Assembly (NCBI GenBank): GCA_016178595.1
Contig: JACOSY010000007.1
Coordinates: 1 to 35,731 of the forward strand
DNA length: 35,731 nt
DNA from: Ignavibacteria bacterium
Lineage (GTDB): Bacteria; Bacteroidota; Ignavibacteria; UBA10030; SZUA-254
Reading direction: 5' to 3'
This document shows, one piece after another, positions 7,755 to 33,865 of the stretch (its first letter is position 1; each line of letters starts with the position of its first letter). The notes beneath the pieces were generated by a model. It saw nothing but the letters and a program-made list of their open reading frames with translations, ran no database searches and was not told the DNA's origin. The position numbers and the translations under genes are program-made.

Positions 7755-9428
7755 ATGGCAGACAACAAAATTATTTTCTCGATGATCGGCGTTGGCAAAG
7801 TCTACAAGCCCAACCGTCAAGTTCTGAAAGACATTTATCTCTCCTTCTTCTACGGTGCGAAGATCGGCGTACTCGGTTTGAACGGCGCAGGCAAGAGCAG
7901 TCTCCTCCGCATCATCGCCGGCATCGACAAAGACTACATCGGGCAGGTTCAATCGCAGAAGGGAATCACCTTCGGCTACTTGCCGCAGGAACCCGAACTC
8001 GATTCCACCAAGACTGTGAAGGAAGTGGTGGAAGAAGGCGCACAAGAAACAGTGAGGCTCTTAAAGGAATATGAAACCATCAGCGCGAAATTCTCCGAGC
8101 CTGATGCCGACTACGACAAGCTCATCGAGCAGCAGGCAAAACTGCAAGAAAAGATCGATCACCTGAATGCCTGGGACATTGACAGCAAGCTCGAACAAGC
8201 GATGGACGCGCTTCGCTGCCCATCCGGCGACACTTCAGTGAACATCATCTCCGGCGGCGAGCGTCGCCGCGTGGCTCTCTGCCGCTTGCTTCTCCAGGAG
8301 CCCGACGTCCTGTTACTCGATGAACCGACAAATCACCTCGACGCCGAATCCGTCGCCTGGCTCGAGCAACACCTTGCGCAGTACAAAGGAACGGTTATTG
8401 CCGTCACGCATGATCGTTACTTCCTCGATAATGTTGCAGGATGGATCTTGGAGCTTGATCGAGGCGAAGGAATTCCATTCGAAGGAAATTATTCGTCATG
8501 GCTGGAACAAAAACAGGCGCGGCTCTCCATCGAAGAGAAACAGGAATCGAAACGCAAGAAAGCGCTTGAACAGGAGCTTGAGTGGATCCGCATGAATCCC
8601 AAAGGTCGCCATGCGAAGAGCAAGGCGCGTATCGCTGCCTACGAAAAGATGCTTGACGACGAACAGGAGAATCGCAACGAGGAATTGGAAATCTTCATCC
8701 CACCCGGTCCACGGCTTGGCGACGTGGTTATTCGATCGGAACATGTCGCAAAAGCTTATGGCGACATACTGCTCTACGACGATCTTAACTTCAGCCTTCC
8801 TCCCGGCGGCATCATCGGTATTATCGGCCCGAATGGCGCGGGCAAGACGACGCTCTTCCGCATGATCACCGGTCAGGAGAAACCCGATGCCGGTACGTTC
8901 AAGATCGGTGAGACGGTGAAGTTCGCGTACGTCGATCAAAGCCGTCCGCTCGATCCCAACAAAACGATATGGCAGGAAATCTCCGGCGGCGAGGATTTAA
9001 TCAAGCTCGGCAATCGCGAAATGAACTCGCGTGCGTACGTGGCACGCTTCAACTTCAGCGGCACCGATCAACAAAAACCGACGGACGCTCTATCGGGCGG
9101 CGAGCGCAACCGCGTTCACCTTGCCAAGGTGTTAAAAGAAGGAGCAAACGTCCTCCTTCTCGATGAGCCGACGAACGACCTCGATGTGAACACCCTCCGT
9201 GCTCTCGAAGAAGCGCTGCTGAACTTTGCCGGATGCGCCGTTATCATCTCGCACGACCGGTGGTTCCTCGACCGCGTCGCGACACACATCCTCGCCTTCG
9301 AGGGAGACAGCACTGTGGAATGGTACGATGGCAATTACTCAGAGTTCGAGGAGTACCGCAAGAAAAAACTCGGCATCGAAGCGGACAGGCCGCACAGGAT
9401 TAAGTATAAGAAGTTGATGCGGGCTTAG
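7755..9428 (+). CDS. ettA: energy-dependent translational throttle protein EttA (ABC-F ATPase)
   Basis: A 557-residue soluble ABC-F protein, very close to the length of E. coli EttA (555). It binds the ribosomal E site and gates entry into elongation according to ATP/ADP ratio. ABC1 has Walker A GLNGAGKSS, signature SGGERRRVAL and Walker B LLLDEPTNHLD. ABC2 has GPNGAGKTT, LSGGERNRVHLAKVL and LLLDEPTNDLD. Between them lie the arm and the P-site tRNA interaction region, with WIRMNPKGRHAKSKARI, a segment specific to the EttA subgroup. A TTTTC-type -10-like motif lies at 7699-7710. The last 7 codons and stop context are duplicated downstream (see the repeat at 9402-9575). Confidence 0.95.
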   Translation: MADNKIIFSMIGVGKVYKPNRQVLKDIYLSFFYGAKIGVLGLNGAGKSSLLRIIAGIDKDYIGQVQSQKGITFGYLPQEPELDSTKTVKEVVEEGAQETVRLLKEYETISAKFSEPDADYDKLIEQQAKLQEKIDHLNAWDIDSKLEQAMDALRCPSGDTSVNIISGGERRRVALCRLLLQEPDVLLLDEPTNHLDAESVAWLEQHLAQYKGTVIAVTHDRYFLDNVAGWILELDRGEGIPFEGNYSSWLEQKQARLSIEEKQESKRKKALEQELEWIRMNPKGRHAKSKARIAAYEKMLDDEQENRNEELEIFIPPGPRLGDVVIRSEHVAKAYGDILLYDDLNFSLPPGGIIGIIGPNGAGKTTLFRMITGQEKPDAGTFKIGETVKFAYVDQSRPLDPNKTIWQEISGGEDLIKLGNREMNSRAYVARFNFSGTDQQKPTDALSGGERNRVHLAKVLKEGANVLLLDEPTNDLDVNTLRALEEALLNFAGCAVIISHDRWFLDRVATHILAFEGDSTVEWYDGNYSEFEEYRKKKLGIEADRPHRIKYKKLMRA

Positions 9429-9575
9429 GCGAGAATGTGCCACGCACCTAAGAAAAGTGCGTGGCACTTCGTCGACCCTCACCCTATGATCCCTCTCCCA
9501 CTGGGAGAGGGATGTCACGCAGTGACAGGGAGAGGGTAAGAGAGACACAAGATAAAGTATAAGAAGTTGATGCGG
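9402..9575. repeat. hairpin element flanked by a 21-bp direct repeat of the ettA 3' end
   Basis: The end of ettA (9402-9422, encoding KYKKLMR) is repeated exactly at 9555-9575; the match extends to 25 bp with one mismatch. The second copy still reads as KYKKLMR followed by Gln and a stop. Between the copies lie an 11-bp perfect hairpin (GTGCCACGCAC 9437-9447 with GTGCGTGGCAC 9457-9467), the string CTCACCCTAT (9478-9487), CCCTCTCCC/GGGAGAGGG and GTCAC/GTGAC palindromes. No gene is present. The first hairpin could also end ettA transcripts, though it has no T run. Confidence 0.75.
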
Positions 9576-9590
9576 CAGTGAAGCCCACCG

Positions 9591-10425: not shown

Positions 10426-10497
10426 GCTTAACCCCACATGCAGCCGACGGCGCAAGTGTGATCGTTGGCGCTACGGCTGATGCGCGGTCCGTTAGGC
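10426..10497 (+). other. attC recombination site of cassette 1
   Basis: R'' is GCTTAAC (10426-10432) and R' is GTTAGGC (10491-10497), fitting RYYYAAC and GTTRRRY. Inside, CATGCAGCCG (10437-10446) pairs with CGGCTGATG (10474-10482) leaving one unpaired base in the left arm, as expected for L''/L' with its extrahelical base. Total length is 72 bp, within the attC range. Recombination would occur between G10491 and T10492, which makes 10492 the first base of the next cassette. Confidence 0.85.
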
Positions 10498-10536
10498 TGC
10501 TGCTCCATTCATCAACTACACATTCTCACATACTCC

Positions 10537-12243
10537 ATGAAAATCATCTGCATCGACAAGGACGTCAAAACAACGCTTGAAAGCGGATACTTTATTATTC
10601 CGAGATTTCAGCGACCTTACCTCTGGGAACGGGAGAACGTAGAAGAGTTCTGGAATGATTCAGTAGTTGACAGCAACGAAGAGCATTTTATTGGGTCCAT
10701 CGTCGTCTTTCGAACTAGGGATAGCAAACTTGGTATCGTAGATGGTCAACAGAGACTCACCACCATTACAATGATCCTTTGCGCTCTTCGAAATGCCCTC
10801 TTCGAAATGGGATTCTCCGATCTTGCAAAGGGGGTTCATAGGCTTGTAGAAAAACCAGACATTGGAAACAAAAATCAATTTGTCTTGCAGACAGAGACCT
10901 CATATCCATATCTTCAAGAATACATTCAAAAATTCGGAAAACCTGAAGCAGAACCTTCTCATGGTAAAGAAGAAGATTATTTGAAGGCGGCATTTGATCT
11001 TATTACCTACGGTATCCGTGAAAAATTACAGGCCGCAGGTGCAAGGGCGGGACATCCACCAAAATCGAAACGCAAAAAGCTTCAAAAATTGATTGAGCAG
11101 ATACGCGACCGAATTCTGAACCTTAAACTTATTTTCATCGAGCTTGATCAGGAAGATGATGCGTATTTTGTTTTCGAAACCCTAAATACCCGAGGCAAGG
11201 ATCTCCGTCTCGCAGATCTCGTAAAAAACCACGTAACGCGTCTCTTAAGACCAAAAAATCAGAATGTAGACCTCGCGAAAGACAAGTGGAACAAAATCGT
11301 CGACGTCATCGAGGAGAATGACAATATCTCTCTTGACAGTTTCCTCCATCACTATTGGCTGTCCAAACACGAGTATATCACGGTCAAGAAACTTTTCAAA
11401 TCGTTGAGAAGAGTTATCAAGCTTTCAAACGCGCGCCAATTTCTGGACGAGCTAATCAAAGACTCTCGAACATATAGGGAGATCTACGAACCTTCATTTG
11501 CAATATGGTCCAAGCAGGAATTATCAATCAGTAACTCTTTGAAGGCCTTAAATGAATTCCGAGTAAAGCAGGATCTTCCCATGATTCTCGCGGTTATGAG
11601 GGATTATCGAGACAGCGCCATCAAAAAGAAACACGTTGATCTCCTCCTTCAAGCCGTTGAGAATTTCCACTTTATGTTTACTGCCATCACTTCACAGCGA
11701 TCATCTGGTGGGATCTCTTTTATGTACGCCATGCACGCCCGCCAACTTTCAAGTGCGAAGTCGCTCCAATCCAAAGTTAAGATTATAAGCGATCTCATCA
11801 GAAAACTCCGCGACAAGAAGCCGTCCTACCAGGAGTTTGAGGCTAACTTCGTGCAGAAATTATATTCTAAGGAATTCTCGAAGGACAAGATCCTTGTCCT
11901 ATATGTCCTTAGTAAATTCTACCGACATTTCGACCAATCTGGTGTCCCCGTGGATTTTTCACAAATGACCATTGAACATGTTTCACCTGAGAAACCTCAC
12001 AAAGGCAAAGCAGGCATCCCTAACACAACCATCGGTCAAATCGGTAATCTTCTCTTAGTCGATCATCAACTCAACTCGCAACTTGCAAACAAGGGCTTCG
12101 ACGATAAGAAGCCAATTCTCATCGAATCGAAAGTCTGGCTTGACCCGAAAATACGTTCAGCCAAAAAATGGGGAAAGAAAGAAATTGAAGATCGAACAAA
12201 ATATTTGGCAAGAGAAGCATACAACAAGGTTTGGAAGTTTTAG
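10537..12243 (+). CDS. DUF262/DUF1524 protein, GmrSD-like, in integron cassette 2
   Basis: A 568-residue protein starting at the ATG that begins MKIICIDKDV; an upstream TTG in the same frame lies inside attC and is unlikely. The N-terminal DUF262 (ParB-fold NTPase, GmrS-like) shows IPRFQRPYLWERENVEEFWN, FIGSIVV and the key IVDGQQRLTTITMIL, followed by FETLNTRGKDLRLADLVKNH. The C-terminus is a DUF1524 HNH-type nuclease (GmrD-like) with MTIEHVSPE, IGQIGNLLLVD and NSQLANKGF. Proteins with this fusion include type IV restriction enzymes that cut modified phage DNA (GmrSD) and relatives in BREX and Ssp systems. A phage-defence role is an inference from family. It is the only gene of its cassette. 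Confidence 0.88.
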   Translation: MKIICIDKDVKTTLESGYFIIPRFQRPYLWERENVEEFWNDSVVDSNEEHFIGSIVVFRTRDSKLGIVDGQQRLTTITMILCALRNALFEMGFSDLAKGVHRLVEKPDIGNKNQFVLQTETSYPYLQEYIQKFGKPEAEPSHGKEEDYLKAAFDLITYGIREKLQAAGARAGHPPKSKRKKLQKLIEQIRDRILNLKLIFIELDQEDDAYFVFETLNTRGKDLRLADLVKNHVTRLLRPKNQNVDLAKDKWNKIVDVIEENDNISLDSFLHHYWLSKHEYITVKKLFKSLRRVIKLSNARQFLDELIKDSRTYREIYEPSFAIWSKQELSISNSLKALNEFRVKQDLPMILAVMRDYRDSAIKKKHVDLLLQAVENFHFMFTAITSQRSSGGISFMYAMHARQLSSAKSLQSKVKIISDLIRKLRDKKPSYQEFEANFVQKLYSKEFSKDKILVLYVLSKFYRHFDQSGVPVDFSQMTIEHVSPEKPHKGKAGIPNTTIGQIGNLLLVDHQLNSQLANKGFDDKKPILIESKVWLDPKIRSAKKWGKKEIEDRTKYLAREAYNKVWKF

Positions 12244-17099: not shown

Positions 17100-17675
17100 A
17101 TGACTGCCGTGTCTGGAAAACTCACGTTCCACCCTTTCACCAAAGAACGCTGGAAAGATTTCGAACGACTCTTCGGCGAGCGTGGCGCGTGTGGAGGGTG
17201 CTGGTGCATGTCGTGGCGGCTTGCCCGCGCCAACTTCGAGCGGCAAAAAGGCGAGAAGAACAAGCGTGCCATGAAAGCTCTGGTCGCAAAGGGTGAGCAG
17301 ATTGGAATTATCGCGTACCAGAACGGGACGCCGGTTGGATGGTGCGCTGTTGCTCCGCGCGAAAAGTATGTGAAGCTCGAGAACGCCCGCGTCCTCAAGC
17401 GCATCGACGATAACCCGGTCTGGTCGATTCCCTGCTTCTTCATCGCCAAAGAGTTTCGCCGGCAAGGATTATCGGTCGAGATGCTGAAAGGCGTTGTCTC
17501 GCACTGTAAGAAGAATGGCGTGAAGATTTTGGAAGCGTATCCGATCATTCCCTATTCATCGAACATGCCGGCAGCGTTTGCGTGGACGGGGATTTTGTCT
17601 TCCTTCAAGAAGGCAGGATTTGTGGAAGAGAAACGTTGGTCGAAGGCGCGGCCGATTGTGCGGTATTATATTTGA
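17100..17675 (+). CDS. GNAT family N-acetyltransferase
   Basis: A 191-residue acetyltransferase. The ATG at 17100 follows the ABC-F stop by 14 bases, so cotranscription is likely. GACGGCWCMSWRLAR near residues 25-39 is the hallmark of a GNAT subgroup with a Cys-rich N-terminus. VGWCAVAPREKY is the central strand, and FFIAKEFRRQGLSVEMLKGV is the acetyl-CoA binding motif A (R-x-x-G form). A late KKAGFVEEKRWSKARPI ends the fold. The substrate is not predictable. The last codons (RPIVRYY) and stop are duplicated 301 bases downstream. Confidence 0.85.
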   Translation: MTAVSGKLTFHPFTKERWKDFERLFGERGACGGCWCMSWRLARANFERQKGEKNKRAMKALVAKGEQIGIIAYQNGTPVGWCAVAPREKYVKLENARVLKRIDDNPVWSIPCFFIAKEFRRQGLSVEMLKGVVSHCKKNGVKILEAYPIIPYSSNMPAAFAWTGILSSFKKAGFVEEKRWSKARPIVRYYI

Positions 17676-17976
17676 GCCAAAGGCGGTAGGACAGGACTCT
17701 GTCCTGTCCACGCAGGACAGAAAAGGATTTCTGTCTTACCAGACGGGAACTCACCCTATAGTCTCCCGCTTAAGAGCATAGCGGGACAAGCCTCTCTTAA
17801 GAAGAGAGGGACGCCAACGCTCCCCTTCTCTTTTTAAGTCGAAGATCCCGCCTACTTTGACGGGGAGAAGGGGCCGGGGGATGAGTTCCGAATAAAAACA
17901 TGACTGTACTCTCTCGCTCACAGAAGAAGATAAAATGCTTTTCATTGCCCGGCCGATTGTGCGGTATTATCTTTGA
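17646..17976. repeat. hairpin element flanked by a 30-bp direct repeat of the GNAT gene 3' end
   Basis: The end of the GNAT gene (17646-17675) recurs at 17947-17976 with 2 mismatches in 30; the perfect core is 21 bp. The second copy still reads RPIVRYYL and a stop. Between them are hairpins AGGACAG/CTGTCCT (17688-17705), CCCGCT/AGCGGG (17765-17785) and CCTCTCTT/AAGAGAGG (17791-17809), and a CCCCTTCTC/GAGAAGGGG pair further on. The string CTCACCCTAT (17750-17759) is shared with the element after ettA. No coding region is seen in 17676-17988. Confidence 0.78.
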
Positions 17977-33346: not shown

Positions 33347-33766
33347 GACTGCGTGTTGTGCAATCGCGGCGCCATAGGCGTCGAGGAAAGTCCGAGCTCC
33401 AGAGGACAGAGTACCTCCTAACGGGAGGGTACTATTGGCGCAAGCCCATAGCAACGGACAGTGTCGCAGAAAATATACCGCCCTGCCGTTGGCAGGGTAA
33501 GGGTGAAAAGGCGAGGTAAGAGCTCACCACTGACGTCGTAAGGCGTCACGTTGATAAACCCTACTCGGAGCAAGACCATGTAAGTTCCGCTTTCCGCCTC
33601 CGCGGAAGAAGGGTTGTCCGCTCAACTTCTCACACAATGGGAAGACGGAACGGGTAGGTCGCTAGAACTCGTTTGCGAGAACGGGTCCAGAGAAATGATT
33701 GCGGCCCCTTCAATCTTTTTCAAAAGGTTGGAGGGGAGACAGAACTCGGCTTACAGACACGCAGTC
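33347..33766 (+). ncRNA. rnpB: RNase P RNA (class A)
   Basis: The catalytic RNA of RNase P, which matures tRNA 5' ends. Helix P1 is formed by GACTGCGTGT (33347-33356) and ACACGCAGTC (33757-33766), which sets both ends and a length near 420 nt. The universally conserved segments are present: GAGGAAAGTCCGAGCTCC from 33383, AGGGTGAAAAGGCGAGGTAA near 33500, GATAAACCC near 33553 and CAGAACTCGGCTTAC at 33740-33754. A pyrimidine-rich stretch follows the 3' end. A 79-codon frame inside it is spurious. Confidence 0.96.
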
Positions 33767-33865
33767 CTTTCTTTTCCATCAAACCCCGACGAAGATTTTT
33801 ATAGGGAATTGTATGACAAGAATTTGTGTAATCACTCGGCACCCCAGTGAGGATCGGTCCTGTTC

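Follow-up and report, generated by a model that had tools for sequence, protein, structure and literature searches.

A gene-end duplication around a palindromic element in an Ignavibacteria bacterium as the probable scar of a homing-type element of the DUF559 kind

The structure at positions 17646 to 17976 of the window, in which a palindromic element separates two versions of the end of a GNAT acetyltransferase gene, probably records the invasion of a mobile element of the homing type, belonging to the DUF559 kind. In the source genome and its relatives, palindrome type and DUF559 clade go together, and both full and bare elements lie between two versions of a gene end, one on the intact gene and the other cut off beyond. 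The window, meaning the whole stretch of DNA analyzed, is the entire contig C3 (35,731 bases) of a draft genome of 3.1 Mb in 61 contigs, 96.9% complete. Its features at the two loci concerned are as follows.

7755 to 9428, plus strand: ettA gene, intact (TIGR03719 / PRK11819)
9393 to 9428, plus strand: functional ettA tail, HRIKYKKLMRA-stop (sequence comparison)
9475 to 9538, plus strand: type A palindromic element at ettA (inverted ends, genome copies)
9546 to 9581, plus strand: displaced second ettA tail, HKIKYKKLMRQ-stop (sequence comparison)
17100 to 17675, plus strand: intact GNAT acetyltransferase gene whose end is the functional tail (open reading frame, Pfam PF00583)
17646 to 17675, plus strand: functional GNAT tail, ARPIVRYYI-stop, continuous with the gene and presumably acquired with the element (sequence comparison)
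17689 to 17709, no strand: short palindrome past the GNAT stop, ahead of the element (read from the sequence)
17746 to 17889, plus strand: type B palindromic element GGAACTCACCC...GGGGATGAGTTCC, enclosing two hairpins (inverted ends, related genomic copies, same palindromes flanking DUF559 genes)
17947 to 17976, plus strand: displaced second GNAT tail, ARPIVRYYL-stop, presumably the resident gene end (sequence comparison)

The two GNAT tails, GCGCGGCCGATTGTGCGGTATTATATTTGA at 17646-17675 and GCCCGGCCGATTGTGCGGTATTATCTTTGA at 17947-17976, are spaced 301 bp from start to start, are identical at 28 of 30 positions with an exact core of 21 bp, and both translate as ARPIVRYY(I/L)-stop; the displaced tail now terminates a 13-codon open frame starting at 17935. 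The original prediction that the 3' end of the gene recurs 301 bases on, over 30 bp with two mismatches, a 21-bp core and RPIVRYY plus a stop at both places, is confirmed. So are its claims that ettA has the same architecture (9393-9422 and 9546-9575, 28 of 30 identical) and that CTCACCCTAT is common to both inner DNAs (at 9478 and 17750). A 28-of-30 match at an offset of 100-400 bp occurs nowhere in the window but at GNAT and ettA, and 20 first-order Markov resamples yielded no such repeat; runs of N are absent at both loci. A common process had been proposed from the shared architecture and the equal 21-bp cores. The process is borne out by many further cases, but the equality of the cores is a coincidence, the lengths varying elsewhere. 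An Rfam scan of the window returned a single match, RNase P class A RNA at 33348-33769 (RF00010, E 3.7e-84).

The inner DNAs had also been expected to have shared ends, and they are indeed related palindromes, yet of two different types. Type A, at ettA, has the form ACCCTCACCCTATGATCCCTCTCCC...GGGAGAGGG...GGGAGAGGGT and measures about 65 bp, and type B, at GNAT, has the form GGAACTCACCC...GGGGATGAGTTCC enclosing two hairpins, in about 90-145 bp. Type C is CCTCCCCT / CCTCTCCT, and type D is CCCCCTT and similar. BLAST with the type A or the type B element found ~33 sites each in the source genome; CTCACCCTAT has nine genomic occurrences versus three for the reversed pattern. A hairpin pattern occurs 40 times in the source genome, where its reversal occurs 0 times, 30 times in G014, and 27 times in G004. 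Other repeats are associated with some type B elements: two of them, at L011 1431-1700 and L019 1380-1570, are enclosed by inverted repeats resembling AACTGATGTTACGCAA that may mark the termini of a further small element, and another repeat, with GTTGAAAAA...TTTTTCAAC ends, is nested within type B elements at L028 1290-1510 and L013 1575-1720.

DUF559 (PF04480) was matched in 9 of the 15 genomes of the bacterium's family, and the full element has the layout palindrome, DUF559 gene, palindrome. Palindromes lie within 250 bp of the DUF559 gene at 24 of 28 loci, versus 4 of 65 control gene loci (p 3e-14), and within the same distance of Y1 transposase genes at 0 of 8 loci. Palindrome type changes six times on a tree of 49 DUF559 proteins, compared with a mean of 24.7 when types are shuffled (0 of 200 shuffles as low). 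In a type B element of G004, the DUF559 gene stands between two palindromes with common outer ends; thus, recombination between the palindromes would leave a bare palindrome. By profile comparison, DUF559 matches 3hrl, an endonuclease-like protein (2e-33), and, modestly, 3r3p, the mobile intron protein I-Bth0305I (E 7e-6), and residues D55, E66, and H72 show no variation across nine sequences. Judged from its sequence, DUF559 is a predicted Vsr-like nuclease, probably related to the homing enzyme I-Bth0305I. The earlier reader could not see these genes, which are carried by full-length relatives of the window's elements. No DUF559 gene lies at the GNAT locus, and the source genome yielded none of type B; we assign the locus to elements of the DUF559 kind because of its palindrome and its footprint. 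Elsewhere, a type C DUF559 gene at a contig end (L352, G000:C15 221500-223462) is interrupted by an apparent IS30-type transposase frame, and in many genomes of the phylum DUF559 lies within open frames of ~700-1,400 amino acids (L253-L258, L265, L268, L273, and others).

The gene-end copies extend well beyond the window. In a scan of ±700 bp around the element sites of the source genome, imperfect repeats of 19-37 bp span the element at eight loci, with almost none elsewhere in these intervals. Tails are duplicated for GNAT, ettA, and a T9SS-type secreted protein (TIGR04183), and starts for clpB, an HAD hydrolase, and Ser/Thr kinases (the last seen by translated comparison); the kinase and T9SS pairs may have paralogues as their source. 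The suggested family of small, apparently non-autonomous gene-end elements is therefore supported, with many more cases in the source genome and relatives. Stop-codon ends as the target are not, since starts are also hit (clpB, HAD, mqnC, Ser/Thr kinases). The clpB gene has three serial starts, in the order MNFPNFTIK, type B element, MNFQKFTIKSQEAVEKA, type C palindromes with a DUF559 gene, and the real clpB, and the HAD gene also has three (MNAILLDFGG, MKAVLFDFGS, and MNAVLFDFGG), with a type A and a type C element in between. One or two clpB start remnants lie upstream of the real start at 5 of 29 clpB loci (G000, G004, G024, G046, and G052), two of these genomes carrying two, and palindromes are present at four of the five loci with remnants versus 2 of the 24 others.

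The clpB remnants end at about codons 9 to 17, remnants in general span 8-30 codons in nearly all cases, and the same gene ends are hit repeatedly across different genera. At L038 1475-1582, L039 1475-1582, and L043 (reverse strand), the displaced start remnant forms an open frame through an A or C element, stopping at a TGA that overlaps the ATG of the next start (ATGA), a possible case of translational coupling. A second duplicated tail was found in none of the GNAT genes of 46 relatives, one of which (L164) has one type C hairpin 17 bp past the GNAT stop, and a DNA-level scan of the G014 elements found no gene-end repeats spanning them. Nearly all of the genomes compared are draft metagenome assemblies.

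The same footprint surrounds complete elements. When their translated flanks were scored against 98 mismatched controls (best control 47), scores above every control were obtained for a serS tail in G005 (EGKVIVPKVLHKYTGFEIIG* / ...TRFEVIG*, 101), a small lipoprotein-like gene in G005 (PVRVEETGVIKPMK*, 88), and the clpB start in G000 (81); the mqnC start in G009 scores 49. The HAD start in G009 scores 44-45, inside the control range, and is listed solely because the site recurs, the target gene being the same as in G000. Across the phylum, ~37 of 85 standalone loci exceed the best of 85 controls (43.5); on inspection, however, most flank repeats in distant genomes turned out to repeat the element's own ends in direct orientation and were left out of the gene-end count. 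The clear gene ends among the phylum-wide loci are menH in G192 (tail) and clpB in G024 (start), and at about half of the family's own full elements, the gene-end copy is undetectable.

How the paired copies differ bears on their origin. Over 21 pairs there are 150 differences, distributed 28/22/100 over codon positions 1, 2, and 3 (binomial p 8e-17, a value that serves only as a guide because the pairs, like their frames, were chosen by hand and are partly of shared ancestry), and stop codons are swapped for other stop codons between copies. The third-position bias indicates that the copies diverged as the ends of coding sequences rather than drifting as non-coding target-site duplications. 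The GNAT pair, with only two differences, carries little information by itself. What had been called gene-tail duplication is thus real as a repeat but not as a simple duplication of the target, since the copies differ as orthologues do and, in G013, the functional ettA appears to come from another lineage.

This G013 locus is the one further duplicated-tail case found at ettA in relatives, its second tail lying 1,373 bp downstream. For clpB and GNAT, G013 is nearest to its congener G008 (86.9 and 81.4%, versus 78.9 and 76.7% to G005). Its ettA, compared by window, is 85-99% identical to that of G005, a member of another genus, versus 72-92% to that of G008, and the DNA directly past the ettA stop is common to G013 and G005. 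The displaced tail (87 nt, a remnant of 29 codons) matches G008 at 70 positions versus 66 for the donor lineage G005, a comparison of few bases, and has the final AAAAAGCTTATRCGATAAAAA in common with G008. From these comparisons, the functional ettA and the element look foreign and the displaced tail native. The pattern suggests that gene and element entered together and that the native end was pushed aside, at a single locus that now has no DUF559 gene; the insert includes a cargo gene. Between the two ettA tails (L077) lie a secreted or lipoprotein-like gene and a palindrome, without DUF559. Palindromic or repeated DNA immediately past the ettA stop is seen at L077, L078, L079, and L081, in several genera of the family, and so the ettA site may be a hot spot. 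In the window, an open frame of 592 amino acids at 10465-12243, ~900 bp beyond the ettA element, resembles DUF262/DUF1524 by eye and is a possible defense gene.

These structures probably arose as follows. An element settles within about 10-30 codons of the start or stop of a conserved gene. The endonuclease would cut a gene end free of the element, repair on the gene side would copy the donor gene end along with the element, and the other broken end, retaining the resident gene end, would be joined behind the element without homology, leaving the host with a working gene and a displaced remnant. The bare hairpins of type B at GNAT and type A at ettA would either be non-autonomous copies or be solo relics, DUF559 having been lost from between the palindromes. 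We infer the cutting, the homing, the joining step, and a donor for the window's genes from the structures described. Strictly type-specific cutting would not lead one to expect different palindrome types at one gene start, as seen with B and C at clpB and with A and C at HAD.

That last observation, one target gene common to different palindrome types, also fits an account in which foreign DNA, carrying a gene and a palindrome downstream or upstream of it, replaces the resident gene through homologous exchange at one end and illegitimate joining at the other, that is, homology-facilitated illegitimate recombination, with palindromes and DUF559 as passengers without a role. Orthologue-like duplicated ends are expected under either reading, and the ettA of G013 appears to have been replaced along with a cargo gene at a locus now lacking DUF559. 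We nevertheless consider passive hitch-hiking unlikely, because it leaves the association of DUF559 with the palindromes unaccounted for, because remnants are nearly always 8-30 codons rather than of any length, and because the clpB start was hit in five genomes, in some twice. A transposition event that creates a long target-site duplication (20-40 bp), in which only gene-sparing insertions survive and the copies then drift, would explain why direct repeats of rather uniform size stand on both sides. It is improbable, as the repeats do not abut the element but lie up to 70 bp from it, and as the ettA of G013 looks foreign; a transposon or MITE of this kind was rejected for the codon-like divergence, with its third-position differences and stop-for-stop exchange, and for the repeat edges, which coincide with start or stop codons.

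The draft metagenome origin of the genomes raises the concern that contigs of two strains, with and without the element, were joined at a gene end, and both the strain-like synonymous differences and the ability of palindromic repeats to break contigs fit such an artifact. The clpB structure, however, recurs in five separate assemblies with differing remnants, DUF559 genes lie inside the repeats, G013 has a 29-codon remnant and a cargo gene, and the window loci lack runs of N, so that we regard misassembly as very improbable. REP/REPIN palindromes mobilized by a RAYT (Y1) transposase would likewise be palindromic, dispersed, and intergenic, and the source genome has Y1 genes (11 matches). Because these are not beside the palindromes (0 of 8 Y1 loci within 250 bp), a RAYT/REP origin was rejected; it would also leave the gene-end copies unexplained, and we give it hardly any credence.

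The closest known counterparts are the mobile ORFs (mORFs) of fungal mitochondria, which have a carboxy-terminal duplication in Glomus atp6, atp9, cox2, and nad3 and in Allomyces atp6, the inserted end being expressed and the native end matching close relatives (PMC3630166). As there, an endonuclease element at the gene end has its presumed inserted end fused in frame and the presumed native end displaced behind, and the two ends differ chiefly at silent sites. Two versions of the gene end flank the element, with the functional one fused to the gene, and a homing-capable nuclease family is found in the full elements (PF04480), though not in the bare GNAT and ettA copies. The mORFs use LAGLIDADG or GIY-YIG nucleases in mitochondria and affect C-termini (PMC3630166), whereas here we find DUF559, bacterial chromosomes, palindromic ends, gene starts as well, and many bare palindromes. 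By analogy, the window structure looks like one that works as mORFs do; being one of them would depend on cleavage.

The 3r3p profile match and the conserved acidic residues and histidine suggest a likeness to EDxHD homing endonucleases such as I-Bth0305I (PMC3943268). Those are phage homing enzymes with long DNA-binding extensions, whereas the proteins here are of ~120 amino acids, with no intron or intein seen. VsrA of Caulobacter has the same Pfam domain and, in the part of its account considered here, is read as a mismatch-repair enzyme and linked to DNA damage in cells without a methyltransferase; that part makes no mention of mobility or gene-end duplication (PMC12907096). The window's elements resemble REP/REPIN in being short, dispersed, palindromic, and intergenic, but unlike REP/REPIN and RAYT, the palindromes accompany DUF559 rather than Y1 genes and are flanked by gene-end copies. 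Among free-standing phage homing genes (T4 seg/mob), the nuclease gene adjoins a conserved gene without splicing, as here, and we know of no palindromic ends or swarms of bare copies in that system. On DUF559 mobility we found nothing in the literature covered, most subscription journals lying outside its scope, and with this partial coverage the novelty of the DUF559-palindrome link is provisional.

More generally, and more tentatively, DUF559 could drive widespread bacterial homing elements at the coding ends of essential genes, which would move replacement ends from genus to genus, while the non-autonomous palindromes shed by them would account for much of the REP-like repeat content of the Bacteroidota-Ignavibacteria; we find this broader proposal plausible but would not yet favor it. 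Nucleases of the DUF559 family are common and palindromic repeats are widespread between genes, and the link between the two, together with the gene-end footprint, makes both testable. If true, it would provide a route for swapping the ends of essential genes such as serS, clpB, and ettA between genera.
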